Positions 5,101 to 26,154 of a stretch of 48,991 bases of DNA are shown here, piece by piece. The stretch comes from Archaeoglobales archaeon (GTDB lineage: Archaea > Halobacteriota > Archaeoglobi > Archaeoglobales > Archaeoglobaceae): contig QMZE01000003.1 in NCBI GenBank assembly GCA_003663025.1, positions 1-48,991 on the forward strand. Direction: 5' to 3'. A program made the position numbers and the translations under genes. Every line of letters begins with the position of its first letter. Positions within the stretch are counted from its first letter, which is position 1. The notes under the pieces were generated by a model. The model saw nothing but the letters and a program-made list of their open reading frames with translations, ran no database searches and had not been told where the DNA came from.

Positions 5101-7081
5101 CGAATACTCAGATGAGGTTGCATATCCGCAGTACGAGAAGATGTGGATGAAGTACAAGCAGATCCCGAGAGAGGATCTGGTTAAATGGATCGCGGCTAGA
5201 CCTTCCTCTCTTGATGACAAGCGTGTGATATTCCACGTTCACGATCTGCTCTACCTTGACGGCGAGAAGTGGTATGACAAGCCAGCGATCGAGCGGTATG
5301 AGAAGCTAAAGGAGGTATTGAAAGAGGGCAAGCACTTCCACGTCGTTGAGTCCAAGACAGCTCACAACATGAGGGAGTTCTTCGAGTATGCTAATTGGGC
5401 GAGGTATTTCCCGAACTCTGAAGGTGCTGTCTTCAAGACAACTGATTCGATCTACAAGATCAGATACGACAGAGCTTCGAGGAATAAAGATTGGTGCTTA
5501 ACCGGTGGAAGCTATGTCCTAACAGAAAACGGATTTGAGCGAGTAGCTTATCTTAAACCGGGCGTTCTGGTCTTCGCAAAGGATGGCGAACTCCACAGAG
5601 TGCTTAGGATTGCAAGGCGGAAAATCGAACCTCACGAACAGCTATTCGAAGTCAAGGATTACCATGGATTAACCGTCAGATTGACTTCAGAACATGAAGT
5701 ACTAACAAGGGAATGCGGTTGGCAAGAATGCTCAGCCTCATTCGGATTAACTCCGGTATTTCCGCGATTGAAGATTCCTAAGGAAAAACCGCCTGAAGAG
5801 CTTTGTTTATCATGGCACGGTTACGAAAAGATCATAAAATGTACTAAAGAGTTTTGGAAGCTTGTTGGTTTCTGGGTTGCCGAAGGTTCGCTAGGGAATA
5901 ACCGAAACAAGAATTACAGACGAGGTGAATTCGAATTCTCCCAGAAAGACGATCAAATATTCTCTGAGCTCGCTGATTTGGCAGACAGAATACTGAAGGC
6001 AAAGGGGAAAAGGTATTGCTATGATGGAGTGAACCGGTACATCGTCTGGGACAAGCCCTTCTGTGATTGGTTGAGTAAGAACTTCTTAGATAAGAACGAT
6101 GATAAGACCCTTCCTTGGTTTATCGCATACCTTGATGATGAGAAGTTTGAGGCGTTCTGGGAAGGTCTTTGGCTCGGAGATCGAAAAGCTCCAGATCGAG
6201 ATGCGATCTCGACCTCCGATAACTCTCTCGCTGGGAGATTATTCGCAATTCTGAATGTTCGCGGTGAGGAAGTCGGTATTCACAAACAGAGAACCAATAG
6301 AAAGGACAATTTCACAATCACAAGATTGAAACGACCCACTCATAAAATATTAGTCAAAAGGCTTTCAACAGACCATCAGGATTTGGTTTACGATATTGAA
6401 GTGGAGAATGAAGATTCGTTCTTAACTGGAAATCTCGTGTTACATAACAGTAAGCTCAAGAACCTCAAGGAGCTCGATGTAATGGTTCTAAAGCCCCACC
6501 TCGTCGAGGGCACCAAAGACGTGTTCACGTGGCAGGGAGTTGTCGGTCCAATTCCTGAGAAAGACCTGGACAAGTACAGAGAGCGAGACATTATGGAGTT
6601 CAAGGGCAAGAAGTACCTGAGGATTGGGACGTGCTACAACGTGAAGGGCAAGAAGCCCGAGGGCAGCATCCTGACCGTAATGCCGATTCGAATAGAGAAG
6701 AACACAACCGAAGACGGCAAGATATACTACACCTGGATGTTCCCGAAGGCTGGGCTGTGGAGACCAGAGAAGAAGGAGCCTGACCCGATCGATGTGGTCG
6801 AAAAGCTCTCGAAGCTGGGGACGAGACCGTTTGAGAAAGCTGGAAACGAGAAAGTGATAAAGATAGAGCTTCCTCTGTGTCCCGAAAAGTACGCGTTCAA
6901 CGAGGAGATCTGCCCTCTCATTAACAGAGTTAAGATACTCGTGGATGGTGTCTGGAAGTCTGACAAGCCGAAGGTGAAGCTTAAGGTTCAGGAGCTGAAG
7001 TATCCGATTGACTGCAAGCTGGCTAACTATTATAGATGCAGGAGAGTGAAGCCGTACTACTATGGGTGGCGAGAGGAATGA
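2135..7081 (+). CDS. Giant multidomain protein: ASCH-like N-terminus, D12 class adenine-N6 methyltransferase, metallo-beta-lactamase fold hydrolase, possible nucleotidyltransferase-like segment, ATP-dependent DNA ligase (intein-interrupted), Cys-rich C-terminus
   Basis: VYVEPFAGGASLF + FFYLDPPY (D12 MTase); THAHPDHLFG + THFG (MBL); IVGG..HHDIDIRV (NTase-like, weak); EQPKYDGMS and EGAVFKTTDS..K and W^SKLK (ligase motifs I, IV, V). Confidence 0.85.
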   Translation: MRFQEIETYNPRSKRTDVLKDDYRWCFAYYASKKMGRRLRISYKQIIDLASKIAEELHRRGIEFHPERYNEHGKELFRKIARRLARKGIILKALDGLYLVEPHAKLIWKGMKTLIVKARRYENLLFYPMYLCGDKVYGIITLTGVTEVDENGFQNLKKHHLVTDKEAREWWGDRNRYYVYKFSFKRFDKPKEYVRPQGAQVKIDDVQIKKMKKPFSHPLGKDRQVSIFLENLPSHKVYVEPFAGGASLFWRKEPVAKEVLNDIDERYVFLLKFLKNASDEQLEKLKNMDYMPSEEKFERLKKTNPDDDVERAYKLIYLIIHSYGGNMEDYAHRKKLRKCGYITNPEDYRERLKNTIITNKDFEEVMKEYDSPDTFFYLDPPYMDEDIKEDPEAFKRRLFEACKKLKGKFLLSFSDDPLIKKLFKDAGFEVKSFLAKRPLSKDYPIKRELLIANYPIKIPKLKKSDVMLKFLGTRGYVEEKSELHNKRASLLIDDGKTKLLIDWGDVNGELPDCDAIIITHAHPDHLFGLKNKEIDVPVFITDATTHSEYYREGVYKFSKTVFKRRSAFRVGDIEVISVPVLHSTKAPNIALFINVGGYRICYASDVLNIRKKHRDKFLRGCDLYIGDGSTLREDGLVRWDEKRDEAIGHAGIPRQIKWCEEAGVKRMIFTHFGSEPIKLGRKLEEKLAELGAEMAYDGWVTNVLVSKAVNLEEIDDEYVEKLSDKKLRELYEELHEIYEREGRITEPLLNAEIFVENEMKRRGMERNINDKLSQEASFWVQEYPPWEKEKKITLQEVIDSFPDVIKIPADVPAIYIVGGLANRGWVTHHDIDIRVASDKYLPEVKRALIHACTRNDIREKLQFIFDSRGGIGLSIPLYVPAEDGLKKDEELRLGKPSQPQKPATGWQKNEFWKIEDAWTKWGASRIDRGIMEQPKYDGMSFQWHIKDGKVIGVFTEDQLRNRIDAFKESVAELPKLLRAKDAILVAEMVEYSDEVAYPQYEKMWMKYKQIPREDLVKWIAARPSSLDDKRVIFHVHDLLYLDGEKWYDKPAIERYEKLKEVLKEGKHFHVVESKTAHNMREFFEYANWARYFPNSEGAVFKTTDSIYKIRYDRASRNKDWCLTGGSYVLTENGFERVAYLKPGVLVFAKDGELHRVLRIARRKIEPHEQLFEVKDYHGLTVRLTSEHEVLTRECGWQECSASFGLTPVFPRLKIPKEKPPEELCLSWHGYEKIIKCTKEFWKLVGFWVAEGSLGNNRNKNYRRGEFEFSQKDDQIFSELADLADRILKAKGKRYCYDGVNRYIVWDKPFCDWLSKNFLDKNDDKTLPWFIAYLDDEKFEAFWEGLWLGDRKAPDRDAISTSDNSLAGRLFAILNVRGEEVGIHKQRTNRKDNFTITRLKRPTHKILVKRLSTDHQDLVYDIEVENEDSFLTGNLVLHNSKLKNLKELDVMVLKPHLVEGTKDVFTWQGVVGPIPEKDLDKYRERDIMEFKGKKYLRIGTCYNVKGKKPEGSILTVMPIRIEKNTTEDGKIYYTWMFPKAGLWRPEKKEPDPIDVVEKLSKLGTRPFEKAGNEKVIKIELPLCPEKYAFNEEICPLINRVKILVDGVWKSDKPKVKLKVQELKYPIDCKLANYYRCRRVKPYYYGWREE
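5495..6448 (+). mobile_element. Intein (318 aa) with LAGLIDADG-type homing endonuclease core, inside the DNA ligase domain
   Basis: Begins C1 (CLTGGSYVLTENGFERV), has TSEHEVLT, LVGFWVAEGSLG, FWEGLWLGD, VYDIEVENEDSFLTGNLVLHN, then Ser+1; exteins rejoin as KDW^SKLKNLKELD. Confidence 0.92.
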
Positions 7082-10077
7082 GGATAACTCAGGACATGCT
7101 GTTGAAAGAGGAGCCCAAGATTCCGTGGTCTAAGCCCATCTACTTAGAGCTCCCTCCGCCTGAGAAGAACGGCAAAGTGAGATATGTGCTACAGCACCAC
7201 TGGAGAGGCCGTAGCGTGCACTGGGACTTCAGGTGCGAAGTGAATAACCATTTGATAGGTTGGAGCGTAGCTTTTGATGAACCCGTAATCATAAGACGAA
7301 ATGGGATGATCGAGATTCTTCCAGCAGAGTGCATCATAAATTTTGGCGGAACGGGGCTTGAGATAAAAGAAGTGGATGGATTAGAAATTCTCACCGGAAA
7401 CGGATTCAGGAAGGTGAAACGAGCTGCTAGGCATATCTTTGAACATGATCTTGTGAGAGTCGTGACTAGACGAGGAGCCATAGAAGTTACGCCCTCTCAT
7501 TCATTATTCCAGAACGGAACTCCAATAAGAGCTGGGGATCTCAAGAAAGGCGATTCTATAGATTTAGCTGAACTTCAAGTAGATATCCCGAATCTGGAGG
7601 TTGATAAAGATTGGGCATGGCTTTTGGGATATTTCTGTGCAGATGGTTACGCCGCACGAAGAAAACAGTGGGAAGCATGGATTTCAGATGAGGATTTGAG
7701 CAAGCTTAAATCAGCAAAGCGGAAGCTAATAAAGTTCGGCATTCCCTCAAGGATTGAGAGACAGGATAAGAATTGCTGGCGACTCCGCATATTATGGGCT
7801 CAGCCCTTATTCTTTAATCTATGTTATGTTGTAAATAAGAATACTTCGACTCATCGCCGTTATAAAATCGTACCTAAATTAATACTAAATGCCGATAAGG
7901 ATGCACGAGATGCCTTCTTAGACGGATTCTATACAGGAGATGGACATCCAGATGGGTCTGGTATGAGCTTTTCGATTCATTCTAAGGCTTTAGGAGCTGG
8001 GATTCTATTCTTAGAGGCGAATCGAGGAAGAGATTTCGGAATAAGTTCGGTGAGGAAGTATAATTCGCTTAATATCTATGTTTATGGGAGAAAGCGGAAG
8101 CCATTAAAGCCACCGAATGAGATAATCGATATCTACAAAGTCAATCGAGGCAAGAACTGCTACGTTTATGATTTTGAGACTGAGGACGGGACATTCATAG
8201 CTGGCGTTGGCAAGATACTTGCTCATAATACGATACTCGACAACCCGAAGATAGACCACGCTCCCACGCTTGAAGAGCTTCCATCCCTGATCGACAAGCT
8301 CGACTGGACGTTCAGACCTGTACCCGGAATGAACAACAAGAAGTGCAGGTGTGAAACTAAAGCAAGACAGCCTAAAGTATGGCTGTTTTGGAAGGAGGAG
8401 TGGGATCCGTGCTCTGCGATTCCCTTTGACCAGCTCTGGAAGCTAGACGTAGGTACTTCTTACGAGGTTGAGGTAAAGCCGGATGAGCTGATAGTGAAGA
8501 TGGACACCGGCGAGGTATTCGAAGCCAAGCCGGGTACAGTGGGAGCGACTAGGTACGAACCGGGAAGATTCCTCATTGTTGATAAGGGATACGTAACATT
8601 CGGAGCTCAGAAGCCTTGGTACCACGAGTACTTCCTCGATTCGATAGCAAAGAAGAAGCACAGGCTGACGTTCGAGAAGATAAGGGTGAACATGAGGGCT
8701 GTGGTTCAGGCGGTGATAGACCCTGAGACGAAGAAGCCCAAGCCGGGCAAGTTCGAGCTTATGTGGGAGGGATGGGTGCCTAAAGACCAGGACCCCTATG
8801 CGGTCGAGAGAGGGAGGAAGAAGGGCTGGGTACCTCCTAAGGGCTTCATTCCGATTCCCAAGTGGTGGATCGAAAAGCACAGGAAGGAGTTCGAGGAGTG
8901 GCTTGAGTGGGTGAAGGAGAAGTGGGCTGAGATAAAGGAGCTGATGAAAGCCGAGGGAGAGTACACGCTCCAGCAGATGAGCTGGAAAGGGCAGAAGGTA
9001 ATCCGTGATATTCCGGTGATGCACTGGTTCTTAAATATCAAACAGGGTGATAAAATCAGGACTTGGGAGCTGTGGTATAATCCTCTTTATGTGCATCCGA
9101 CTGCGGCAGGATACGTCGGTCAGGCTCCGAAGAAGTGGTTCGAGTTCGAGGGCAAGCTTAAACCGGGAGAGCTGTTCAACCCGCGGAAGAGGCTTAATGC
9201 AGACGTGAAGATACTCGACAAAGGCAAAGTATTCGTGGACGCCAAAAGGGTGAACGGACGAGAAGTGCTCGTGCTGTCGTTCTCAGGCAAGCTGGGCAAG
9301 TTCTGGAAGCTTGAGCAGGAGGAGCGGGGATCTGACCTCTACTCGTTCAGCAAGTCGAGCATCAAGAAGGCGTTCGGTAGCTTCGTGCTTCAGAAGCACT
9401 CGTGGAAGGGAGGATCGCACTACGATATCAGAATTGACGAAGGAGGAGATTACCTGCTTGAGTGGTCGCTCAACAAAGACCCGCGGAAGTTCAAAATAGA
9501 TGAGTCCGAGAAGGTGATCCTCAAGAAGTGCTACGACAAGAGCTGGCTCACGTTTGAGGGAAAGAGGAAAGTAGGAGGCGTAATAACCGACGTTAAGATT
9601 CTCGACAGCGGTAAGGTCGACTTCATAGAGAAGTCTCAGCTGTTCAGGAGCTTTGTCTTCCACGGTGACTCCCTGAAGGGCTACTACGTCCTGAAGTCGG
9701 ACGGCAAAGAGTGGAAGTTCATCAGGTCAGCTCTCCCGGGCATGAAGAAACAGCTGAGGTACGAGGAGAAGTCTGGATATATCAGAGTGCACCTGCACGA
9801 CATAAGGGACTTCACGAGGTGCGAGGGCGAGGAGAAAGCGAAGCGCTATAAGATACCGAAGCTACCAGAAGGGGTCGAAGCTAATATCTGTTTGTTCCCC
9901 AGACCAGGAACGATACACGGCGCTAAGATCCAATCGCTGAAGTTCGACAAGAGGCTCTGGAGCATAGAAAGGATTAAAAGAGAGTTCGACTTTAAACCAT
10001 TCGTTGAGTGGGAAGGGGTGCAGGTGAGGGATGAGCACAGGCGAGTACGTCCTCGTACCTTTAGACCAAGCTTCTGA
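7078..10077 (+). CDS. Protein with repeated LigD-type 3'-phosphoesterase-like modules, intein-interrupted
   Basis: YVLQHHWRGRSVHWDFRCEVNNHLIGW and SFVLQKHSWKGGSHYDIRIDEGGDYLLEWSLNKDP resemble the LigD PE core FVxQKH..HYDFRLE..LKSWA; further degenerate copies. The ORF track starts at 7036, but ATG 7078 overlaps the upstream stop (ATGA). Confidence 0.75.
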   Translation: MRITQDMLLKEEPKIPWSKPIYLELPPPEKNGKVRYVLQHHWRGRSVHWDFRCEVNNHLIGWSVAFDEPVIIRRNGMIEILPAECIINFGGTGLEIKEVDGLEILTGNGFRKVKRAARHIFEHDLVRVVTRRGAIEVTPSHSLFQNGTPIRAGDLKKGDSIDLAELQVDIPNLEVDKDWAWLLGYFCADGYAARRKQWEAWISDEDLSKLKSAKRKLIKFGIPSRIERQDKNCWRLRILWAQPLFFNLCYVVNKNTSTHRRYKIVPKLILNADKDARDAFLDGFYTGDGHPDGSGMSFSIHSKALGAGILFLEANRGRDFGISSVRKYNSLNIYVYGRKRKPLKPPNEIIDIYKVNRGKNCYVYDFETEDGTFIAGVGKILAHNTILDNPKIDHAPTLEELPSLIDKLDWTFRPVPGMNNKKCRCETKARQPKVWLFWKEEWDPCSAIPFDQLWKLDVGTSYEVEVKPDELIVKMDTGEVFEAKPGTVGATRYEPGRFLIVDKGYVTFGAQKPWYHEYFLDSIAKKKHRLTFEKIRVNMRAVVQAVIDPETKKPKPGKFELMWEGWVPKDQDPYAVERGRKKGWVPPKGFIPIPKWWIEKHRKEFEEWLEWVKEKWAEIKELMKAEGEYTLQQMSWKGQKVIRDIPVMHWFLNIKQGDKIRTWELWYNPLYVHPTAAGYVGQAPKKWFEFEGKLKPGELFNPRKRLNADVKILDKGKVFVDAKRVNGREVLVLSFSGKLGKFWKLEQEERGSDLYSFSKSSIKKAFGSFVLQKHSWKGGSHYDIRIDEGGDYLLEWSLNKDPRKFKIDESEKVILKKCYDKSWLTFEGKRKVGGVITDVKILDSGKVDFIEKSQLFRSFVFHGDSLKGYYVLKSDGKEWKFIRSALPGMKKQLRYEEKSGYIRVHLHDIRDFTRCEGEEKAKRYKIPKLPEGVEANICLFPRPGTIHGAKIQSLKFDKRLWSIERIKREFDFKPFVEWEGVQVRDEHRRVRPRTFRPSF
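7264..8229 (+). mobile_element. Intein (322 aa) with LAGLIDADG-type homing endonuclease core, inside the first PE-like module
   Basis: Begins S1 (SVAFDEPVIIRRNGMIEILP), VTPSHSLF, LLGYFCADGY, FLDGFYTGDG, VYDFETEDGTFIAGVGKILAHN, then Thr+1; exteins rejoin as HLIGW^TILDNP. Confidence 0.9.
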
Positions 10078-14296: not shown

Positions 14297-14500
14297 CCAG
14301 TGTATTAGCTAAAGCTATACTAAAGCTTGACCAGTGCATTGGTCTGATATAGAGAGAAAATTATATGTGAAGTTGTCTCAACAGTAAAGAGACTTATACA
14401 AGACACTGCTAGGAATCGCCGATGAAAGTTGAGAACTGTGTGAGAGGGCATCTGTCACTTGTCCCGAAAAAAATATCTGTCATATATTGAAATTCAAGGT

Positions 14501-14698
14501 TCAATCTTCATCTTCTAGGACTTCTTCGTATCTTCGTATTGTTTTGGCCAAAGCGATTATTGTTCGTTCTAAATCGTGGATTCTTGCTCTTAATCTGTCC
14601 TTTTCTTGATATGCTTCGTTTAATAGTTTTAATAACTGTTTTCTAGTATAATTTTCGTAAATCTCTTCTAAAAATTCTGAATCCTCCGTTTTCAACAC
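14501..14698 (-). CDS. Small coiled-coil protein
   Basis: MLKTEDSEFLEEIYENYTRKQLLKLLNEAYQEKDRLRARIHDLERTIIALAKTIRRYEEVLEDED. Confidence 0.5.
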   Translation of the reverse strand: MLKTEDSEFLEEIYENYTRKQLLKLLNEAYQEKDRLRARIHDLERTIIALAKTIRRYEEVLEDED

Positions 14699-14771
14699 CT
14701 CCTTTCAATTTTTCATACATTCACAAAAAAAAATTGGGAAATTAGTGTTTATCTGTTGAATCACTGTTATT

Positions 14772-14999
14772 TCACTTGTTTTTCTTAACTTCAACGATTT
14801 TTAGGTCGCCATCTGCCAAATCGTTTAGCAGGCCTTTAACTATCTGTGCGAACTCTTTGTTACTTTGTGTACCGACGAATTTCAGCATTTTTTGAACTTC
14901 TGGACTTGAACGTTTGCCGAAGTTAACCCAGAAATTGCCTTTTGTTGATTTTTGTACTTGTTCTTTCACGTAGCGATCTCTCAAATTCATTTTCATCAA
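14772..14999 (-). CDS. Small protein of unknown function, paralogue of 19267..19470
   Basis: FVGTQSNKEFAQIVKGLLNDLADGDLKI aligns with FGTSSPKELGQILVGLAKDLKAGKAQI; own upstream TATA. Confidence 0.55.
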   Translation of the reverse strand: MMKMNLRDRYVKEQVQKSTKGNFWVNFGKRSSPEVQKMLKFVGTQSNKEFAQIVKGLLNDLADGDLKIVEVKKNK

Positions 15000-15033
15000 C
15001 TCTCATTTAGCGTAATAATATTCGTTAAACTCA

Positions 15034-15042
15034 TATATAAAC
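15034..15042 (-). promoter_or_regulatory. TATA box of the 14999 (-) transcription unit
   Basis: gtttatata in reverse complement, about 38 nt upstream of the start. Confidence 0.5.
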
Positions 15043-15074
15043 TTTTCTATACTTGTTCAATATTCAACATGTTC

Positions 15075-15106
15075 AATATTAAATAAATACGTATTTATTT
15101 AATATT
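15075..15106. promoter_or_regulatory. 32-bp perfect palindrome, copy 1 of 3
   Basis: AATATTAAATAAATACGTATTTATTTAATATT. Confidence 0.9.
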
Positions 15107-15108
15107 CA

Positions 15109-15160
15109 CTAATCAGCGTACTAATTAGTCACTAATTAGTGATCTAATTAGTCGCTAATC
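15109..15160. repeat. Five-copy CTAAT(T/C)AG iteron-like array
   Basis: CTAAT at 15109, 15121, 15132, 15144, 15155 (spacing 12/11/12/11 bp). Confidence 0.85.
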
Positions 15161-15170
15161 AACATGTCCA

Positions 15171-15214
15171 ACACTTGTATACACTTGTATATCAAGCACT
15201 GGTCGTTGGTCGTT
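15171..15214. repeat. Short tandem repeats: ACACTTGTAT x2 (15171-15190) and GGTCGTT x2 (15201-15214)
   Basis: Read directly. Confidence 0.8.
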
Positions 15215-15445
15215 GGAGTATAGATATAGGCGCGCGAGGTGAAAGTGGAAGTGTGGGCCATATTATCACCACCTATCTCTTCACCACCTCTTCACTTCTC
15301 AGCGTTATCGGTCTTATCGGCTTCCACCCGCGCTCTTTCTTCTCACATGCACTTATGAATCTTTAACTTCTCTACGCTGATTTTAAAAATTCTTTAACGA
15401 TTTTTGCGAATTTCGTAAAAACGAATACAGAATTGTATCCGAATG

Positions 15446-15455
15446 CTTAAATATC
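15446..15455 (+). promoter_or_regulatory. Promoter (TATA-like cttaaatatc) of the 15485 operon
   Basis: About 35 nt upstream of ATG 15485. Confidence 0.45.
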
Positions 15456-15484
15456 GTTAAGGATTATTTAATACGTGAGTTAAA

Positions 15485-16024
15485 ATGAGAGTTAAAAAGT
15501 TACCGACCTGTTCCAAAACCGATAAAGCCGAGTTTTCCAGCGATTACATCAATGCCATAAAGCAATTGCCATACGAACTGCTGACCAAGGAGGAGAAATG
15601 CGTTATCAGGCGTTTGGAGCGTGAGAGTTTAGCATACGAGCGGTTTCTTAGGCGCATGGGCATAGCATACAAAGGCCAGTTGACTCCAACTGAAGTCAAG
15701 ATCCTCAGACGGGCTAGGAAGCGGGATCTGGAGCACCAGAAGGTGGTCGACGAGATACGGCGCTCCAGGCTCGAACCTACGCCTCAACAGCTCCACAAAG
15801 TGCCGACTCAGCGTGAAAAACCAATGTTCTTCTTCAGGCTCTGGCCAACCGGCGAATCATGCAGTTATGAGCGGTTCATGCGGGAGTACTGGCCAGCCAT
15901 CAAAAAGCGGTATGAAAAGCTCGAAGCCGAACAGCGGAAGCGTAAGCGCAGGTCCAGGCGGGTCCGTGAGAATGCGTATGCCGATTTCAAAAAACGGCTT
16001 CTGGGAGGTGGTCAAACTGATTGA
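15485..16024 (+). CDS. Basic protein of unknown function with C-terminal YxxFxxRLL tail
   Basis: Ends ENAYADFKKRLLGGGQTD. Confidence 0.6.
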   Translation: MRVKKLPTCSKTDKAEFSSDYINAIKQLPYELLTKEEKCVIRRLERESLAYERFLRRMGIAYKGQLTPTEVKILRRARKRDLEHQKVVDEIRRSRLEPTPQQLHKVPTQREKPMFFFRLWPTGESCSYERFMREYWPAIKKRYEKLEAEQRKRKRRSRRVRENAYADFKKRLLGGGQTD

Positions 16025-16184
16025 ACAAATAAGTCTGAAGATCATAGCACTGGTTTGCGAAATCACCCGACTCAGCCGTCTTCCTGATGTCAGCTCTGAA
16101 AGGATCTCGAGAATTAGACTTCAACTCCTCGGAGAACTTAAACGACAAATCTCGGAGCTTGAGGTGATGGTTGCTAATGACTGA
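16008..16184 (+). CDS. Small helical protein
   Basis: GTG start overlapping the upstream stop; VVKLIEQISLKIIALVCEITRLSRLPDVSSERISRIRLQLLGELKRQISELEVMVAND. Confidence 0.45.
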   Translation: MVKLIEQISLKIIALVCEITRLSRLPDVSSERISRIRLQLLGELKRQISELEVMVAND

Positions 16185-16299
16185 AAGCTGTGTCCTGTTC
16201 TTCAAGCGCCATGTTCAGTGCTTCGGTTCGTTGAAGTGTCCAACTAACTCCACCTGCCCTCTCTTTTATTTGTGCTATATGGTCAAGCTGTCACGCGGA

Positions 16300-16344
16300 C
16301 TTGGCTCCATCTCCGCTCCAAGCGGGTGGAGAGGAGAGACCAAG
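16300..16344 (+). ncRNA. Leader hairpin element A (cis-acting RNA candidate)
   Basis: CTTGGCTCCATCTCCGCTCCAAGCGGGTGGAGAGGAGAGACCAAG followed by TTAAGGAGGTGG and a TTG start. Confidence 0.7.
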
Positions 16345-16360
16345 TTAAGGAGGTGGTAGT

Positions 16361-16612
16361 TTGATAAACGTATGTGAAGGTAAGGATATCCAGAGAAGTG
16401 AGGGCAATCCTTGGAATTCTTGGGAGGCTTACTTGGATGACGAGGGCAGACCAATCAAACCATACAGTTTTGTTACAGGTGGTTGGTTGCGTTTCTTCCA
16501 ACACCTCAAGGAATGCGAGAAATGTCGTAAAGCCAACAACATAAGCCTTAGAGAAGTCAGAGAAGAACTTGAGTCTCTTGAAAAGGAATGGAAGGAGGTA
16601 ATGGGCAATTGA
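16361..16612 (+). CDS. Small protein with H-x3-C-x2-C motif
   Basis: FFQHLKECEKCRKANN; TTG start after AAGGAGGTGG. Confidence 0.55.
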   Translation: MINVCEGKDIQRSEGNPWNSWEAYLDDEGRPIKPYSFVTGGWLRFFQHLKECEKCRKANNISLREVREELESLEKEWKEVMGN

Positions 16613-16773
16613 ATGAGGAAATTATTGATGAATTACTGACCACCCTCAATTTGCTCCGGCATGATACCGACCATATAAAAGCTCACCTTAGTGCTCTGGT
16701 CAGAGAGCTCCAAGAGTTGAACAAAACTCTTCAAAGCTTTCAAAATTTCAAAATTGTTATAAGGACTAAATAG
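16588..16773 (+). CDS. Small helical protein; true start probably TTG 16609
   Basis: LNEEIIDELLTTLNLLRHDTDHIKAHLSALVRELQELNKTLQSFQ. Confidence 0.4.
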   Translation: MEGGNGQLNEEIIDELLTTLNLLRHDTDHIKAHLSALVRELQELNKTLQSFQNFKIVIRTK

Positions 16774-16816
16774 GATTCAAATTCCTTCCCCACTTTTTTT
16801 TCTTCTTCTCCTCTTT

Positions 16817-16861
16817 CTTGGCTCCATCTCTCATCAAGTCGATGAGAGAGGAGAGATCAAA
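16817..16861 (+). ncRNA. Leader hairpin element B (cis-acting RNA candidate)
   Basis: CTTGGCTCCATCTCTCATCAAGTCGATGAGAGAGGAGAGATCAAA; apical CTCTCATC/GATGAGAG. Confidence 0.7.
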
Positions 16862-16877
16862 GTTGGGAGGTGAAATA

Positions 16878-17207
16878 TTGGATATAAAAATAAGACAACT
16901 CTTTAGTGGACAAGAGACGTTCTGTCTACCACCAAAGCAAAGCGGGCAGTATCTCCGTATGTTTCCTAACGCACCAACCCAGAACGGGTTGGTGGTCTGC
17001 AGAGTTCCAGAGGAATACAAAGTTTCGGGGCAAGCAGGGTCCATAAAAATCGATGGCACCATCATCGAGCATCCAAACGGCTATTCATGGTTCATCCTAG
17101 TTTCCAAAAAATGGCACTACACCAAGGCGTTTGCTGGCATAGCAAAAAGTGTTCAAGAGGCGAAGAAGCAAATCCAAAAATTGTTCCTCCAAATCAATCC
17201 TAACTAA
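16878..17207 (+). CDS. Protein of unknown function
   Basis: TTG 16878 after GGGAGGTG; the ORF-track start at 16818 would translate the hairpin. Confidence 0.55.
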   Translation: MDIKIRQLFSGQETFCLPPKQSGQYLRMFPNAPTQNGLVVCRVPEEYKVSGQAGSIKIDGTIIEHPNGYSWFILVSKKWHYTKAFAGIAKSVQEAKKQIQKLFLQINPN

Positions 17208-17235
17208 TCTCTCTCTCCTTTTTTTTCCTCTTGTT

Positions 17236-17279
17236 CTTGGCTCCATCTTTGCTCAAACGAGTAAAGAGGAGAAACCAAG
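17236..17279 (+). ncRNA. Leader hairpin element C (cis-acting RNA candidate)
   Basis: CTTGGCTCCATCTTTGCTCAAACGAGTAAAGAGGAGAAACCAAG; apical CTTTGCTC/GAGTAAAG. Confidence 0.7.
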
Positions 17280-17300
17280 TTAAGGAGGTGATATGAGAAG

Positions 17301-18656
17301 TTGGGAGAGTGGCACGAGATAGCCTATCCCATCTCGCTCCAGTATAGAAAGCACTGGGGCGAGTGGGAGGCGATAAGAGAGATAGTCCAGAACAGCTTGG
17401 ACGAGTGCGAGTCCTTTGAAATCCTCCAGACCGATGAGGGTACTGTGATCCGAGACAGCGGTTCAGGATTGGCAGTTAAGCACTTACTCTTCGGAGTGTC
17501 AGAGAAGAAGTCTAAGGACTCCAGAGGTCGATTCGGTGAGGGCCTGAAGATAGCTCTCGTGGTCTTAAAGCGGTTGGGCTACGACGTCACGATAAGGTCC
17601 AACGGTCTTGAAGTGAAAACTTCAACTCACGAAATAGAGGGCGAGCGGTGCTTGAAGCTCCTGTACCGCAAGATCGATAACCACACAGACGGCACTGAGG
17701 TGATAATACACGGCTATAAGGGCTCAGCATTCGAAGACAGGTTCACAATAAATAAGACTCCCGTCTGGAGAGGAACAACGATCTTCGGCGACAAGGCAGA
17801 AATCTACGAGGAACAGCCAACGAGGCTCTATGTCAAGGACATTTATGTTCAGGACCTGCCAAACGCTATGTTCAGCTACAACCTGTGGGACGTCAGGCTC
17901 GAAGAGTCGAGGAATATAGCCGACTCGTGGAGCTTGAGCTACGAGATTGGTCGGTTGTGGATGAATGTGGGCGACTACAATCTCCTGGTCAAGTTCATGG
18001 AAGCCATTAAGCTCAAGAAGTGGGAGTACCACAATTGCTATTTTAACTACTCCAGCAACCACCCACACGAGTTCGTCAAGGCGTTCAAAGAGGTCTTCGG
18101 GCAGAATGCATTCGTTAAATGCTCAAATACATGGAGTTCAGAGGCTGAGTGGAGAGGCGGTGTCCCCGTCGAGTTACCGTCCGAGCTTCAAGAAGGATTC
18201 ATCAGATCAGGAATACCAACAGACGAAGCATTCGTCCTGATGAAGTCTGGCAGAACAAGAGTCCCGGTTGACGACTCAGAGCTCTCCGAGACTCAACTCG
18301 AAAACTTACTGAAGCTCAGGAAGGTAGCAAAGCGACTCACCGAGCACCGGGATAAGAAAATCCAGGTGAGGGCGTTTAAACTCCCTCCGGATGAAGAGGG
18401 AGTCTGGATGAAGCAGTCCGGTGTAATAGCCATCTCGACCAGCGCCCTCAACAGCTTCCTCCATGCCTTCTCAGTGTTCCACCACGAGCTCACCCACGCG
18501 CTCTACGGAGTCGGAGATGGAACACACGGCATGATCCATGCACTGTCCAAATGTGCGGCTCTTATAGCCTCCGAGTTCGACATACCTGGTAAGGTCAGAA
18601 TCCCAAGAAATCCGTACAAGGATTTCAAGCAGAGGCTTCTTGGCTCCAGCCAATAG
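17301..18656 (+). CDS. GHKL-type ATPase fused to HExxH zinc metalloprotease-like domain
   Basis: AIREIVQNSLDEC (N box), DSGSGL (G1), GRFGEGLKIAL (G2); VFHHELTHALYG (HExxH); tail NPYKDFKQRLLGSSQ. Confidence 0.75.
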   Translation: MGEWHEIAYPISLQYRKHWGEWEAIREIVQNSLDECESFEILQTDEGTVIRDSGSGLAVKHLLFGVSEKKSKDSRGRFGEGLKIALVVLKRLGYDVTIRSNGLEVKTSTHEIEGERCLKLLYRKIDNHTDGTEVIIHGYKGSAFEDRFTINKTPVWRGTTIFGDKAEIYEEQPTRLYVKDIYVQDLPNAMFSYNLWDVRLEESRNIADSWSLSYEIGRLWMNVGDYNLLVKFMEAIKLKKWEYHNCYFNYSSNHPHEFVKAFKEVFGQNAFVKCSNTWSSEAEWRGGVPVELPSELQEGFIRSGIPTDEAFVLMKSGRTRVPVDDSELSETQLENLLKLRKVAKRLTEHRDKKIQVRAFKLPPDEEGVWMKQSGVIAISTSALNSFLHAFSVFHHELTHALYGVGDGTHGMIHALSKCAALIASEFDIPGKVRIPRNPYKDFKQRLLGSSQ

Positions 18657-18721
18657 CACCAACGCTTTACGCTATATAGTGAAGAAGAGAGTTCAGAGTT
18701 TAAGTTGGAGAGCTGGTCAGG

Positions 18722-19051
18722 ATGGGCTTGACTCTCGACGAGTTAAAGAAGCGAGTGTATGAAGAGGCGGAAAAGATAGACGACTGGAAGCTCTACATCC
18801 ACTTAAGGCGCCTGAAGATAAGACGCCTAACGCCGAACCTCAGAACCTTTCATATCCTCAAAGTCCTCATAGCCATGAGGAGGCTTCATTTGCCCATCAA
18901 CTCCAATACCGTGACCTGGATCTTCCCGAACGAACACAACCTCTTCAACAAGCTCCACAACCTCGGAGACAAGCACCTGATAATCTTAAAACGGAAGGAA
19001 AGAACCTACGAGTGGATCTTGAACGAAGAACTGCTTGGTGACTTCCTATGA
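18722..19051 (+). CDS. Putative winged-helix DNA-binding protein
   Basis: LIAMRRLHLPINSNTVTWIFPNEHNLFNKLHNLGDKHLIILKRKERTYEWIL. Confidence 0.5.
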   Translation: MGLTLDELKKRVYEEAEKIDDWKLYIHLRRLKIRRLTPNLRTFHILKVLIAMRRLHLPINSNTVTWIFPNEHNLFNKLHNLGDKHLIILKRKERTYEWILNEELLGDFL

Positions 19052-19260
19052 AAGAGCGCATCAGACTTCCATCGGATGCACTCATGAAAGCCTCAAAGAT
19101 CTGGGGACTTAGAGAGACAGAAACTGAATACATCGTTGAGTCTCCAAACTTCATATTCTTTTGTGAAAAGCTCGTTTGGAAGAAAGATAAGCCTCGGGAG
19201 AGGACTGACCCGTACAGGCGGTTCCTCCAGACGAGGCTCCTAGCCTCGAACAAGAGGTAG
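19048..19260 (+). CDS. Small protein with shared C-terminal tail
   Basis: Ends TDPYRRFLQTRLLASNKR; ATGA overlap with the upstream gene. Confidence 0.55.
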   Translation: MKERIRLPSDALMKASKIWGLRETETEYIVESPNFIFFCEKLVWKKDKPRERTDPYRRFLQTRLLASNKR

Positions 19261-19266
19261 TTAAAG

Positions 19267-19470
19267 ATGGACTTTAGAAAGTATGTTGCGAAGAAAGTAT
19301 CCACCGGAGAGCCGAAGAAGCACTACATAGGGCCCATCGAGAACCCAGAGGACTGGACAGTGATAGTCGAGGTCTTCGGCACGAGCTCTCCTAAAGAGCT
19401 CGGCCAGATACTCGTCGGCCTTGCTAAGGACCTGAAAGCCGGTAAGGCTCAGATATCGTTCACCGACTAA
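19267..19470 (+). CDS. Small protein, paralogue of 14772..14999(-)
   Basis: FGTSSPKELGQILVGLAKDLKAGKAQI. Confidence 0.55.
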   Translation: MDFRKYVAKKVSTGEPKKHYIGPIENPEDWTVIVEVFGTSSPKELGQILVGLAKDLKAGKAQISFTD

Positions 19471-19516
19471 GCATCGAAGTTCCAGAGCGTTCTTCCAACT
19501 TCCCCTCTTTATTTTT

Positions 19517-19552
19517 GTTCTAAAGCCTCTCAGCAAGCCTGAGAGGCGGAAC
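19517..19552 (+). ncRNA. Leader hairpin with related layout
   Basis: GTTC-taaa-GCCTCTCAG-caagc-CTGAGAGGC-g-GAAC, followed by TTAAGAGGTGG. Confidence 0.6.
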
Positions 19553-19568
19553 TTAAGAGGTGGATGAG

Positions 19569-19781
19569 TTGAAAAGAGGAGAAAGAGCTTTGTTGGAAGT
19601 CCTGACGCATATCGATATAATACGAGAGGTTCTTAGCGGAGCGGAAAAGGCGCCAGGCATCAGCGCCTACACCGTCAGTACCATTCACCACCAGCTGAAC
19701 GAGCTCGAAGCTCAGATCAAGGAAGAGCTGAAGAACTTAATGTGGGCTGAGTTCTGCACCAAACACAATATCAAGGAGTGA
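19569..19781 (+). CDS. Small helical protein
   Basis: TTG 19569 after AAGAGGTGG; the ORF track starts at 19560. Confidence 0.5.
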   Translation: MKRGERALLEVLTHIDIIREVLSGAEKAPGISAYTVSTIHHQLNELEAQIKEELKNLMWAEFCTKHNIKE

Positions 19782-19787
19782 TCTCCA

Positions 19788-20177
19788 ATGCTCAGGACCA
19801 ATCTAATCAATGCACTGGAACACGCCAAGGAGATGACGCTTGAGATAGCGAACTCCACGAAGCATCCGGTGAGGAAGAAGCGTGCTTTGGAAGCCTATCA
19901 TCAGGCATGTGAGCTCAAGGACTTCCTTGAGCATCCATCGCTTTACAGACAGACAGACAAAGCAAGGTACGAGAGACTAGCCAATATCTTCAAACAGATG
20001 ATGTGGTGGTTATTCGTCAAGAAGCCAAAGAGGAGGCGTGTGTACTCGATAGCCCTCGGTCTCTACAAGCGTGCTTGGTTCTTTGATCTCTACTATTTCA
20101 TCAAAGTTGAGCAGTCCACTAATGCCACATTCAGAATCGGAGTTCCAACCGGTTTTGGCACATTCTACGGTGATTGA
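19788..20177 (+). CDS. Hypothetical protein
   Basis: 129-aa ORF, gene-like codon usage. Confidence 0.5.
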   Translation: MLRTNLINALEHAKEMTLEIANSTKHPVRKKRALEAYHQACELKDFLEHPSLYRQTDKARYERLANIFKQMMWWLFVKKPKRRRVYSIALGLYKRAWFFDLYYFIKVEQSTNATFRIGVPTGFGTFYGD

Positions 20178-20179
20178 GT

Positions 20180-20419
20180 ATGGGTAAGAAGAAGAAAGAG
20201 GTTATACAGTTGGACTGCGAAAGACTGCACATGGCATTCGAGAGGCTCATGGAAGTATTCGACGAGCTGGCAGAGAAGGGTGTCACCGAGGGAGAGCTGG
20301 TCATGGCCGCACACTTTGCTTTCGAAGCCAGACTGCTGACCATTTATACGGCTAACCTCCTCAACACTCTTGTGATCGGGCTTGCAGAACAGCAAAGGGA
20401 GGAATCCTACGCCTCGTAA
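20180..20419 (+). CDS. Hypothetical helical protein
   Basis: MGKKKKEVIQLDCERLHMAFERLMEVFDELAEKG... Confidence 0.5.
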   Translation: MGKKKKEVIQLDCERLHMAFERLMEVFDELAEKGVTEGELVMAAHFAFEARLLTIYTANLLNTLVIGLAEQQREESYAS

Positions 20420-20438
20420 GCACAGGGAGGAAGAGTAG

Positions 20439-20789
20439 ATGGGTCAGTACTTCTTAATAGTTAACCTATGCAAGGGCGAGTACCTCCATCCGCATAAGAT
20501 GGGGTGTAGTGCCAAGCTCTACGAGTTATGCACTGATCCGAGGATGGGAGTGCTGATTTACCTGTTAAGGAAGAGCGACGAAAGCGGTGGCGGAGATATC
20601 CATCCGCTCAAGAACTTTCCCAACGCAGGAAGATGGGCTGGCGATGCGATAATGGTCATCGGAGACTACGACTCAAGCGACCTCTACTTCTACGTCAGGG
20701 AGCACTTCAGGGAGATAACCAATTTGATCAAAGACGAGTATAACAAGTTCGTTGGAGATGAAAAATTTAGAATTGGAAAGGAGGGATGA
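20439..20789 (+). CDS. Conserved viral hypothetical protein (MGQYFxxVNLxKxEYLHPHK...GRWAGDxIMVxGDYD type)
   Basis: Motif set recalled from other phage hypothetical proteins. Confidence 0.6.
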   Translation: MGQYFLIVNLCKGEYLHPHKMGCSAKLYELCTDPRMGVLIYLLRKSDESGGGDIHPLKNFPNAGRWAGDAIMVIGDYDSSDLYFYVREHFREITNLIKDEYNKFVGDEKFRIGKEG

Positions 20790-21019
20790 GAATGTATATT
20801 AGAATATTCGTCTGGGAAGAAGACGGCTGGGAGATCAAAGCCGGATACGTCTGCAGTCCGAAGAAAGCCGAGAGGGTTCATAAAATACTCAAATCCGACC
20901 TAAACGATGGTCTGATACGCTGGTTCAGGAGCTTTACACTGCACGGCTACAACATAGACCCGATAGACCTACCGAACATTCAAATAAAAGATGGAAGACT
21001 CATATTAAGGAGGAAGTAG
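20786..21019 (+). CDS. Hypothetical protein
   Basis: 77 aa, overlaps the upstream stop. Confidence 0.5.
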   Translation: MRMYIRIFVWEEDGWEIKAGYVCSPKKAERVHKILKSDLNDGLIRWFRSFTLHGYNIDPIDLPNIQIKDGRLILRRK

Positions 21020-21020
21020 G

Positions 21021-21254
21021 ATGAAGTGCCCAAACTGCGGAGAGGAGATAAGAACGATACTCGTGGAAGGCACAGAGCTGGTCTGGATCAGGGAAGTCTA
21101 TGAAGAGACCGCCGACGGCTCGTTTAAATTCAGCCGTGTCGAAGACGAAGACGCAGTCGATTACGAAATGGAAGAAATTCTCTGTCCAAAATGTGAGAAA
21201 CCGATAGATCCTAGTCTGGTAAGATTCATAAGGGAGGAAAACAAGCGTGCCTAA
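21021..21254 (+). CDS. Zinc-ribbon protein
   Basis: MKCPNCGEEI...LCPKCEKPI. Confidence 0.6.
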   Translation: MKCPNCGEEIRTILVEGTELVWIREVYEETADGSFKFSRVEDEDAVDYEMEEILCPKCEKPIDPSLVRFIREENKRA

Positions 21255-21498
21255 GTGTCCGAAGTGCGGTAAAGAGATAGACCATCTGGTTTACCAGTCG
21301 TATGAGCTGGTAACGGCAACGGCGCTCTTGACTCCAGCTAATACGATAGACTACGCAAGCTGGGAATTGCGTGGAATAACGAGAGACCCGCCTGAGTACA
21401 GATGCCCAGAGTGTAGTGCTACTCTATTCGATAATGAAGAGGACGCCGAAGCGTTCTTGAGAGGTGAAATGAAGGATGGTGACCGAGAGACAGCTTAA
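21247..21498 (+). CDS. Zinc-ribbon protein, tandem relative of 21021
   Basis: MPKCPKCGKEI...YRCPECSATL. Confidence 0.6.
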   Translation: MPKCPKCGKEIDHLVYQSYELVTATALLTPANTIDYASWELRGITRDPPEYRCPECSATLFDNEEDAEAFLRGEMKDGDRETA

Positions 21499-21718
21499 GA
21501 TAGCATATATACTCGGCCACTTTGGTTCAGTGTGGATTCGGACGACCCGATCGAAGTTCGGCATTCCATCTCTTGCCTTTCCCCTCAAAGAGATCAGAGA
21601 GACTACAAACGAAATCCTGAGGAAGACGGATCCATACGGACTTGGGGAGATCAGCGACGACGAGATCCGGGAAGTGCTCAGGCTCCTCGGTATGGAAGAG
21701 TACATAATCGAGGAGTAG
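21476..21718 (+). CDS. Hypothetical protein
   Basis: 80 aa ORF in the operon. Confidence 0.45.
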   Translation: MVTERQLKIAYILGHFGSVWIRTTRSKFGIPSLAFPLKEIRETTNEILRKTDPYGLGEISDDEIREVLRLLGMEEYIIEE

Positions 21719-21720
21719 AC

Positions 21721-21879
21721 ATGATCGACACCATCTTCCTCGTCTATAAAGCCCTCTACATGAAGTTCAGGATCTACTACTGCCGTCCCCTAGCTTCCCT
21801 CCTATTTTTTATCGCCCGTCTGCACATGAGGTATGAAGCTCATCGGGTAAAGAGGCTTCTGGATGAGGGGAGGCGGTGA
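21721..21879 (+). CDS. Small hydrophobic/basic protein
   Basis: MIDTIFLVYKALYMKFRIYYCRPLASLLFFIARLHMRYEAHRVKRLLDEGRR. Confidence 0.4.
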   Translation: MIDTIFLVYKALYMKFRIYYCRPLASLLFFIARLHMRYEAHRVKRLLDEGRR

Positions 21880-21948
21880 TCGAGCTTGTCCGCTCTTGAT
21901 GCTTGGATGAAGAAAGAGATCGAATAGGAGCCTCGCCACCAGAACCTT

Positions 21949-21960
21949 TATAAACCGATG
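21949..21960 (+). promoter_or_regulatory. TATA promoter of the 21985 gene
   Basis: cctttataaacc about 30 nt upstream of ATG. Confidence 0.5.
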
Positions 21961-21984
21961 CGCATACTTATCGGATGATGGGAT

Positions 21985-22260
21985 ATGTTCGAGGTAGTAA
22001 AGAATATAGCGTCCGGAATGGTCTCGGGCCTTGTAACCGCATTCTTGGGCTACATGAAGAGCAAAGACGAGGAGTTTGATTTGGGCAAATTTGCTCAGAC
22101 GCTCGTAATAGGCGGACTCGTGGGTGCGGTAGCTCAAGTAGCCGGTATGAGCTACAACGACGCATATGACTACCTAGCCTCAGTGGGAGCCATTTCTCTT
22201 CTAGAGTACTTGAAAAAAACGGTGTGGCGCCGGTGGCTCAGCAGGTTCTTCAGGTCTTAG
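21985..22260 (+). CDS. Small membrane protein (holin-like topology, function unknown)
   Basis: Two hydrophobic segments and a basic C-terminus. Confidence 0.5.
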   Translation: MFEVVKNIASGMVSGLVTAFLGYMKSKDEEFDLGKFAQTLVIGGLVGAVAQVAGMSYNDAYDYLASVGAISLLEYLKKTVWRRWLSRFFRS

Positions 22261-22281
22261 ATGCATATATGCACTTCAATC

Positions 22282-22313
22282 AATATTAAATAAATATGTA
22301 TTTATTTAATATT
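22282..22313. promoter_or_regulatory. 32-bp palindrome, copy 2 of 3
   Basis: AATATTAAATAAATATGTATTTATTTAATATT. Confidence 0.9.
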
Positions 22314-22331
22314 CATCGAAGTAGCAATAAC

Positions 22332-22340
22332 GCTTATATA
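22332..22340 (+). promoter_or_regulatory. TATA box of the MoxR/VWA operon
   Basis: gcttatata. Confidence 0.45.
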
Positions 22341-22395
22341 CTCAAATCGAGAATTACTAATCCGCTCTTGAGTTGAGTTAGAAGCGTGAGTTGGA

Positions 22396-23418
22396 ATGGA
22401 CCAACAGTTGAGAGATCAATTGGTCGAGTGTTTTAGGGAGAAAGGAGACTGGACAGTAAGCGAGCTTCTCGAACGGCTTCAGGTCTCTTCTCAGGAGCTT
22501 CTGAGCCAGCTTTCGATTCTGAGAAGTACAGGTCAGATAAAGAAAGTGGGTCGCAACACTTGGGTTGCTGTGAACATACCCGGTAAGTCAAGCGAAGAAG
22601 AGAACCCGCTCATACCGAAGAACGTCATCTATGATGACTGGCAGGGCATAGTGTCCAGACTTCTCAAGTGCTACAAGCTCGGATTGAACGTGCTCCTCAT
22701 CGGTCCAGCCGGTACAGGGAAGACCGAGGCCGTGCGCAAGGTGGCTGAGATCCTCAAGAAGCCTCTTAGGATCATTCCATGCTCTCTTAGAACGAGAGAG
22801 CACCACATAATAGGTAGGCTCGATACGGATGAAAATGGCAACCTGTACTTCAAGAAGGGACCTCTGATTCTGAGTATGGAGGAGGGAGGCATCTGCTACC
22901 TCGACGAGCTGAATATTATGGAGCCTGATGCGCTTATGAGGGTGGACGAGGCATTAGACCAGAGGAAGGAGATAAACGTAGAGGGTCAGACGTTCAGGGC
23001 GAAAGAAGGATGGTGGTGCGTAGCCTCGATAAATCCTCTCGACAAGCTCCACCTAGGCACTAAGACGCTCTCATCTCAGATAATCTCGAGATTTCCTGTC
23101 AAGCTGAGGCTCGCTTACCCAGACGTCTCCACCGAATACAACATAGTCAAGCTCCACGTACCCGAGATAGCCAAGTATTCGTCTAAGATGATCGAGCTCA
23201 TCAAAGCGATTCAGTTCTTAAGGACCACCGATCTGCCCTACGTTCCGACTATCAGGGAGAGCATAGCGTTAGCGAAGCTGATAGCCAGCGACGTCAAGCC
23301 CTACGAGGCGGTTAAGATGGTCCTCATAGACGTTTACGCTCAGTGGGGTGAAGTCGTCATTCGTCAGGCTACCGAATTAATTGAAAGCAAGATAGGGAAA
23401 TTGGAGGTGTTTGTTTGA
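22396..23418 (+). CDS. MoxR-type AAA+ ATPase with N-terminal winged helix
   Basis: LLIGPAGTGKTEAV Walker A, GGICYLDELNIM Walker B, HTH-like N-terminus. Confidence 0.8.
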   Translation: MDQQLRDQLVECFREKGDWTVSELLERLQVSSQELLSQLSILRSTGQIKKVGRNTWVAVNIPGKSSEEENPLIPKNVIYDDWQGIVSRLLKCYKLGLNVLLIGPAGTGKTEAVRKVAEILKKPLRIIPCSLRTREHHIIGRLDTDENGNLYFKKGPLILSMEEGGICYLDELNIMEPDALMRVDEALDQRKEINVEGQTFRAKEGWWCVASINPLDKLHLGTKTLSSQIISRFPVKLRLAYPDVSTEYNIVKLHVPEIAKYSSKMIELIKAIQFLRTTDLPYVPTIRESIALAKLIASDVKPYEAVKMVLIDVYAQWGEVVIRQATELIESKIGKLEVFV

Positions 23419-23672
23419 GCGATCCGATAGAGGAGTCCATAGCGCTGACGCTTACGGAATCCGTTGGAGAGGAGATAACGGTAGTGGCGATGAAGAGCAG
23501 GAAGCAGAGCTCGCTCCCTTACTCAAGACTCCCGAGTGGTAAGATAGTCCTCTTCGAGGAGCGAGATCCGTTCTCCTACAGGATAAAGCCCGGAGATGTG
23601 GTTGACTGCGTTATCAAGATAGTCAAACCGAGCTATATAATAGTTAAACCAATCAGGATAAGGAGGCGCTAA
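23415..23672 (+). CDS. Small OB/TRAM-like protein
   Basis: GDVVDCVIKIVKPSYIIVKPIRIRRR; between MoxR and VWA genes. Confidence 0.4.
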   Translation: MSDPIEESIALTLTESVGEEITVVAMKSRKQSSLPYSRLPSGKIVLFEERDPFSYRIKPGDVVDCVIKIVKPSYIIVKPIRIRRR

Positions 23673-23673
23673 T

Positions 23674-25275
23674 ATGATCAAGCTGGTCGATCCAGATGAA
23701 GTGCTGAGCTTTTTAGCGAGGGCGTGGAGCGAAGACAAGGAGACGCTGATAAGGCGGGATAGTTGGTTCTTCGCCAACGTGGAGAGCAAGATCATATTCC
23801 TCCCGAGCTACTTCCAGAAGCTCCCCATGGAGAAGCATATGAACCTGGCGAACATAAGGAGGTGGAGGTTCTATAGGTTCTCAGCATGGCATGAGGCACA
23901 GCATATACGCTTCAGTCCCTTCAAGCAGGAAATCATCCCGAAGATAGAGGAGAAGCTTGAGAAGATGGGATTTAGCGTCAAGGGCTCCCTCGTAGAAGCT
24001 CTCGTTGACGTCTTCGAGGACTACAGGATCGAAAAGCTCGGCCTCAGGGACTACAAGTACGAAGAGGAAAAGAGGTTCGTGGATGAGATAGGAAGAATAG
24101 CTTCGGAGAAGGCATTTGAGAAGATAGCTGATGAATGGAACATATATAGCGCGGTCTTGACCGGGTACCTCCTCTTCGATGCCAAGATACCGAACACCGT
24201 AGCTGTAGATCCGGCATTCCTCCAGGCTCTCGATGAAGTCAAGGAGAATATGCTGAAGATAGAGACCGTCGAGGACTTGGAGGATGCGGTCGTCAAGAGC
24301 TATCCGCTACTTCACGAACACTGGCCCAAGTACATAACATGCCCAGATGCGAGGGGCATACGCCTCGTGGGAGCCACCCTCATCTTCGAGGGCAACGTCA
24401 AGCTCGACGCTGAGATCCCAGAGGAGATAAAAGAGGAGTTCAGAACTATGATGAAGTCCATCCAGAAGTTCAACGAGGAGATGAGGGATTTGCAGAAGCT
24501 CGCATCCTCGCTTGGAGGAAAAGTGCAGACCGAATTAGGCGACTGGAACCTGATATACGATCCCGTGAGGACATACGCAGAGATACTCAAGAACCAGCTG
24601 ACGAAGTGGAAGGTGGGATGGGTCGAGCACCTGAGCCATGTTGGAGACGACATAGAGCCCGAGTCTTACCTCCTCTCCAGGTACTACGATTCATACGAGA
24701 AGCCGAAGTTCCTGATAGACGAGGAACAGCTCTCCCAGAAGGCTGACTTACTACTGCTCGTGGACATGTCGGGTTCGATAGATCAGCATCTCGAGCTCTA
24801 CAAGCGGAGCCTGGCAGTGATAACCTCTGCTCTCGATTACGTCGGTACTAAGTTCTCGTTGTTCACATTCTCGGGTAAGAAGATATCAGTTATCAAGGAC
24901 TTATCGACTCCATTCGACATTCACACGAAGGAGAGGGTAGCAGGTCTCGAGGCGAGCGGAGGCACTCCTCTCGGCCATATTCTCAGAGTCCTCAACGAGA
25001 AGTACCTCGGTGGAATCGATAGGATAGTTGTGGTAACGGATGGATTCCCCGACAATCCCAAGGTTGCTTTGGAAGAGATTAAAAGGATAAGAGAGCGAGG
25101 TAAGAAGCTTGGAGTCATGCTCCTCCAGAGCGAGGAAGTATCTAACCTAATCGGTTTCGATCTTTATAGGGAGTTCGAGTCGCTCCTGTCGAGAATTCCA
25201 AACAGCTACATCCGCGTCGGGAGCGTGAAGGAGCTCCCCTTGCAGTTCTTCAGGCTCCTCATGTACATGAGGTGA
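23674..25275 (+). CDS. VWA-domain protein (MoxR partner)
   Basis: LLLLVDMSGSIDQHL MIDAS DxSxS, VVTDGFPDN. Confidence 0.8.
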   Translation: MIKLVDPDEVLSFLARAWSEDKETLIRRDSWFFANVESKIIFLPSYFQKLPMEKHMNLANIRRWRFYRFSAWHEAQHIRFSPFKQEIIPKIEEKLEKMGFSVKGSLVEALVDVFEDYRIEKLGLRDYKYEEEKRFVDEIGRIASEKAFEKIADEWNIYSAVLTGYLLFDAKIPNTVAVDPAFLQALDEVKENMLKIETVEDLEDAVVKSYPLLHEHWPKYITCPDARGIRLVGATLIFEGNVKLDAEIPEEIKEEFRTMMKSIQKFNEEMRDLQKLASSLGGKVQTELGDWNLIYDPVRTYAEILKNQLTKWKVGWVEHLSHVGDDIEPESYLLSRYYDSYEKPKFLIDEEQLSQKADLLLLVDMSGSIDQHLELYKRSLAVITSALDYVGTKFSLFTFSGKKISVIKDLSTPFDIHTKERVAGLEASGGTPLGHILRVLNEKYLGGIDRIVVVTDGFPDNPKVALEEIKRIRERGKKLGVMLLQSEEVSNLIGFDLYREFESLLSRIPNSYIRVGSVKELPLQFFRLLMYMR

Positions 25276-25284
25276 AGAAATCAC

Positions 25285-25301
25285 GGTCACTAGACGTGAC
25301 C
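25285..25301 (+). repeat. Short intergenic hairpin
   Basis: GGTCAC-tagac-GTGACC. Confidence 0.5.
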
Positions 25302-25347
25302 CCAGCCATGGGTTAAATGGCGTAAACAAACAGGAGGATTGAGAGAG

Positions 25348-26115: not shown

Positions 26116-26130
26116 ACCACCAATACCTCT

Positions 26131-26140: not shown

Positions 26141-26154
26141 ATGGAGGCGGGAAG

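Follow-up and report, generated by a model that had tools for sequence, protein, structure and literature searches.

Here we report that a 32-bp palindrome occurs three times in the complete genome of a tailed archaeal virus, and that its copies stand upstream of the TATA boxes of four promoters. We read this palindrome, with a probability of about 0.5, as the operator of one virus-encoded regulator that would be supplied by the early operon and would activate the middle and late genes. A more specific version, in which an early winged-helix activator encoded by the virus binds the palindrome and turns on replication and both virion operons together, is put forward tentatively. The observations behind this reading are the sites, their uniqueness, the TATA boxes, the operon layout and a motif frequency in related genomes that does not rise above the control level.

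The window, by which we mean the whole stretch of 48,991 nucleotides that was analysed, begins and ends with the same 123 bases:

48869-48991, plus strand: 123-bp repeat of positions 1-123, circular closure of the genome

Because of these identical ends, and because the gene for the large terminase spans the join (48001 to 368), the contig is the complete 48,868-bp genome of a tailed archaeal virus. Its tailed-virus genes encode a portal, a prohead protease, an HCTV-1-like major capsid protein, a tape measure and neck proteins, and the portal and capsid proteins have relatives in haloarchaeal and methanogen viruses at about 20-30% identity. The capsid protein has one distant relative among 397 genomes of the phylum, none in the genomes of the family and none in a scan of GTDB species genomes; no close relative came to light. 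A nucleotide search of the family with positions 14400-34300 gave weak matches alone outside the window, and no CRISPR array was found at those loci. The bin containing the virus contig consists of 335 contigs and is 72% complete; among its larger contigs (C1, C2, C4-C7 and C10 examined) GC spans about 0.36-0.60, and several of them have a viral look. With such different GC values in one bin, its lineage may be other than that of the virus's host. Two very large reading frames with intein-like insertions occupy 2135-10077 and join adenine methyltransferase, beta-lactamase-fold, DNA-ligase and LigD 3'-phosphoesterase-like domains; a related set is present on another contig of the bin (L043/C6).

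The genome is 93% coding, with a non-coding share of 6.7%, and the order of its genes points to five transcription units, for which the labels early, middle and late are taken from gene content alone:

14501-14999, minus strand: small two-gene unit downstream of palindrome copy 1 (14772-14999 and 14501-14698)
15485-22260, plus strand: early operon, small genes including a winged-helix protein
22396-35318, plus strand: replication/middle operon downstream of copy 2 (MoxR-type AAA, VWA, OB-fold, Sak4-like, PD-(D/E)XK nuclease, RecU-like)
35310-45984, minus strand: tail operon downstream of copy 3 (neck, tail, tape measure)
46164-48868 and on across the circular join, via the terminase (48001 to 368), to 14296, plus strand: packaging/head operon downstream of copy 3 (terminase, portal, capsid)

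The replication operon ends in a papain-family cysteine protease (34334-35318, E 4e-37), preceded by a small protein that matches a protease PHROG. Within the early operon, a leader hairpin of the form CTTGGCTCCATCT...AGAGGAGA.A.CAA occurs in three copies (16300-16356, 16817-16873 and 17236-17292), each ending at a Shine-Dalgarno-like GGAGGTG before the early genes 16361, 16818 (or an internal start) and 17301. In its upper stem both sides change while pairing is kept; it has no Rfam match, is absent from the other bin contigs that were fetched, and looks like a repeated translational control element. The early proteins 15485-16024, 17301-18656 and 19048-19260 are otherwise unlike one another and have in common a C-terminal tail, (N/D)xYxxFxx(x)RLL(G/A), that is possibly a docking tag for a shared partner.

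All three copies of the palindrome are intergenic, one in each of three AT-rich promoter gaps (GC 0.30-0.34):

15075-15106, no strand assigned: palindrome copy 1, centre CG, perfect over 32 bp
22282-22313, no strand assigned: palindrome copy 2, centre TG
46058-46089, no strand assigned: palindrome copy 3, centre TA, perfect over 34 bp (46057-46090)

Copy 1 reads AATATTAAATAAATACGTATTTATTTAATATT and equals its own reverse complement, as a preliminary description of this DNA had stated. The three copies are identical at 30 of 32 positions and vary only in the central dinucleotide, so that the recurrence described at 22282 and 46058 holds, with the refinements that the symmetry of copy 2 is broken at its centre and that of copy 3 extends beyond 32 bp. 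The same description saw no further copy, and none is found in the window at up to three mismatches, a search that returned the three copies against zero in 100 dinucleotide shuffles. Next in length among the window's perfect palindromes is one of 16 bp, and the maximum in first-order Markov sequences of the window's length (n=40) was 20 bp; the 32-bp palindrome is genuine and far above chance. Every centre is a pyrimidine-purine step, as expected with a DNA kink at the dyad, which at three copies is suggestive only. Outer inverted GAAG-type arms at copies 2 and 3 were noticed post hoc. Terminators and RNA hairpins were ruled out, as each site precedes a TATA box and lacks a following T-run, and coding repeats were ruled out by the intergenic position of every site.

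The same specific site is present at four promoters of the virus and, outside the virus contig, nowhere in the bin or in 39 other genomes. Searching related genomes for the motif had been suggested as a check in the preliminary description; the outcome is that a relaxed 24-bp core occurs at the level of reversed controls across 55 genomes of the family (the bin and 54 others), that the exact palindrome has no match in one-per-species GTDB genomes, and that there are no coding copies. A blastn search of copy 2 against phages gave weak AT-rich matches only (best E 0.1). Confinement of the motif to the virus contig, together with its control-level frequency in the family, favours a virus-specific regulator. 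It also makes it very unlikely that the palindrome is the site of a host transcription factor borrowed by the virus: archaeal viruses do rely on host RNA polymerase and initiation factors (PMC5569661), but a factor of this lineage would meet its motif in the bin and the other family genomes no more often than controls predict, with the caveat that the bin may not be the host lineage.

The position of the sites relative to the core promoters, with distances measured centre to centre, is as follows:

15034-15041, minus strand: TTTATATA, TATA box for the minus-strand pair; distance to the copy 1 dyad, 53 bp
22333-22340, plus strand: CTTATATA, TATA box for the replication operon; distance to the copy 2 dyad, 39 bp
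46113-46120, plus strand: CTTAAATA, TATA box for the packaging/head operon; distance to the copy 3 dyad, 43 bp
46016-46023, minus strand: TTTATATA, TATA box for the tail operon; distance to the copy 3 dyad, 54 bp
15446-15453, plus strand: CTTAAATA, TATA box for the early operon; distance to copy 1, 359 bp

The four palindrome-associated boxes lie at a plausible distance from start codons, the dyads are 39-54 bp upstream of them, and no site overlaps a TATA box, BRE or start region. In three of the four cases the spacing is near a whole multiple of 10.5 bp, which is suggestive only. The measured range is close to the roughly 40-54 bp given in the preliminary description, which was also right that the copies precede different transcription units, namely the minus-strand pair, the replication operon and the divergent virion operons. 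One correction concerns copy 1, which it had placed in a divergent early control region: this copy belongs with the minus-strand pair only; the TATA box of gene 15485 is far off, and the early operon promoter carries no palindrome copy. Its proposal of an operator for one viral regulator remains the best reading of a virus-specific, intergenic site with TATA boxes nearby, and the regulon it had described as one of three operons comprises four promoters.

From these observations we infer that a protein binds the palindrome, that this protein is viral, which protein it may be, and that it activates rather than represses. Host RNA polymerase would first read the palindrome-free early promoter (TATA at 15446), and the early operon would then supply the regulator. 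A symmetric, sequence-specific protein, dimeric or tetrameric, would bind all three palindromes and, from its place upstream of the four TATA boxes, would help TBP/TFB assembly and thereby turn on the small minus-strand pair, the operon for replication and both of the divergent virion operons. Three proteins were considered as the binder:

18722-19051, plus strand: predicted winged-helix protein of the early operon (AF2 from single sequence, mean pLDDT 72.7)
29930-30373, plus strand: RHH-like N-terminus and coiled coil, as called from sequence in the preliminary description
31384-31668, plus strand: ArsR-type HTH (Pfam HTH_20, E 7e-9)

Of the three, the predicted winged-helix protein of the early operon, 18722-19051, is the leading candidate; its structural matches are weak (best E 0.38) and mostly to ArsR/SmtB-type proteins. 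No RHH family match was found for 29930-30373 in Pfam, PHROGs or PDB searches, and the PDB holds no sequence relatives of any of the three. Both 31384 and 29930 are encoded within the palindrome-controlled replication operon.

We prefer an activator to a classical repressor operator because the sites are found upstream of BRE/TATA, the usual binding place of activators in archaea. Archaeal sites upstream of these elements tend to activate, and repression tends to come from sites that overlap or follow the core promoter, TrmBL1 being an example (PMC4706686); similarly, the CopR motif is found directly upstream of BRE at genes that CopR raises (PMC7830388). Position alone does not prove activation, since repression by SvtR is exerted from a site some 80 nt upstream of TATA/BRE (PMC5569661), and 30 conserved positions exceed the need of a simple dimer.

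The SvtR precedent lends some weight to the opposite sign of control, which we regard as a serious rival, though the less likely reading: an SvtR/AvtR-like viral RHH protein (e.g. 29930-30373), or the ArsR-like protein 31384, would keep the middle and late genes silent during early infection or a carrier state, either by spreading toward BRE/TATA or by bridging distant sites. Both SvtR and AvtR are viral proteins that recognise imperfect, AT-rich inverted repeats at several promoters of their viruses and act there as repressors (PMC5569661); the window does encode an ArsR-type HTH protein, and in the related virus vir519 a palindrome present in multiple copies occupies a repressor position. 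Here, however, none of the four sites overlaps a core promoter element, both candidate repressors sit in the very operon that they would shut off, and a lysogenic state is not evident, as no integrase was found in the proteins scanned.

The preliminary description had also offered a replication or recombination site as an alternative, which gained no positive support, with no recombinase in the proteins scanned and an iteron-like array missing from two of the three copies. Sites for replication origin, partition or genome organisation are improbable. In their favour are AT-rich perfect palindromes and the setting of copy 1, which occupies the largest non-coding gap (485 bp) next to an array of short repeats:

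15109-15161, no strand assigned: five CTAATYA repeats at 11-12 bp spacing (15109, 15121, 15132, 15144 and 15155), beside copy 1 only

This array is a separate second element, either a second operator array or iterons, but the other two copies stand without it at the promoters of unrelated modules. Cumulative GC skew tracks gene direction and does not switch separately at the copies; neither a recognisable partition gene nor a match to an initiator family was found. Recombination or inversion sites, or cruciform-forming sites for a resolvase, are extremely unlikely. Symmetric arms flanking a variable 2-bp core, a single strand that can fold into a 14-bp hairpin and an encoded RecU-like resolvase (E 2.5e-9) are consistent with that view, yet two of the three cores read as palindromes in their own right and could not set direction, and the promoter positions would be left without explanation. 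Neither an integrase nor a serine or tyrosine recombinase was found in the proteins scanned (Pfam and PHROGs, with some small ORFs outside the scan), and weak recombinase-type matches are restricted to the coiled-coil part of 29930.

Set beside described systems, the viral operator that we favour would work most like SvtR, AvtR and the SIRV2/SMV2 elements, and can be assigned to none of them, because the regulator here is known only as candidates. SvtR of the rudivirus SIRV1 is likewise a small viral regulator acting at several viral promoters through an AT-rich inverted repeat, with one distant upstream site, but it is an RHH repressor of a different virus class with an imperfect consensus, ATnnTTCAAnAnnnnnAAAATG, in contrast to the perfect 32-bp palindrome and putative regulator of this virus (PMC5569661). 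AvtR of the lipothrixvirus AFV6 has several viral sites, controls a divergent gene pair and activates or represses; it differs in its short imperfect consensus, ATnnTnnTAnnACnTT, and in an oligomer that spreads over about 100 nt, whereas here there are three near-identical long sites (PMC5569661). By eye, the 32-bp sequence is different from both consensus sequences. In SIRV2, SMV2 and their relatives a virus-specific early-gene sequence is common to several promoters, with inverted repeats in SMV2, but these elements lie around the core promoter (BRE/TATA) of early genes, not upstream of it at replication and virion operons (PMC11065993). TrmBL1 and CopR of Pyrococcus share a palindromic or semi-palindromic site upstream of BRE/TATA that is tied to activation; they are cellular regulators, with motifs unrelated to the 32-bp palindrome (PMC4706686, PMC7830388).

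Among tailed archaeal viruses, vir519 (BK063666) has the same capsid-protein family (phrog_24667) and likewise repeats a single palindrome at several of its promoters, as seven exact or near copies of the 20-bp AAGGTACTGATCAGTACCTT, at 2774, 3807, 27047, 28566, 36181, 37930 and 38598. That sequence is unrelated to ours, and most of its copies lie directly after a TTTATAA box, about 25 bp before the CDS start; the set is likely a repressor regulon. Multi-promoter palindromic regulons thus occur in such viruses with different sequences and positions. BJ1 and Hardycor1 have GC-rich palindrome families only, apparently a composition effect, the first 50 kb of vir335 contains one weak palindrome pair, and no palindrome family was found in psiM2.

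Little is established about the way in which tailed viruses of archaea schedule gene expression through the eukaryote-like transcription machinery of the host. The literature that we found on archaeal viruses concerns chiefly repressors and early-gene elements, and a dedicated activator of middle and late genes would, if true, differ from these. Four promoters, one palindrome and few candidate proteins make up a compact and directly testable switch, and the contrast with vir519, where the palindrome is in the repressor position, provides a natural pair for asking whether the position of a site decides between activation and repression in archaea.
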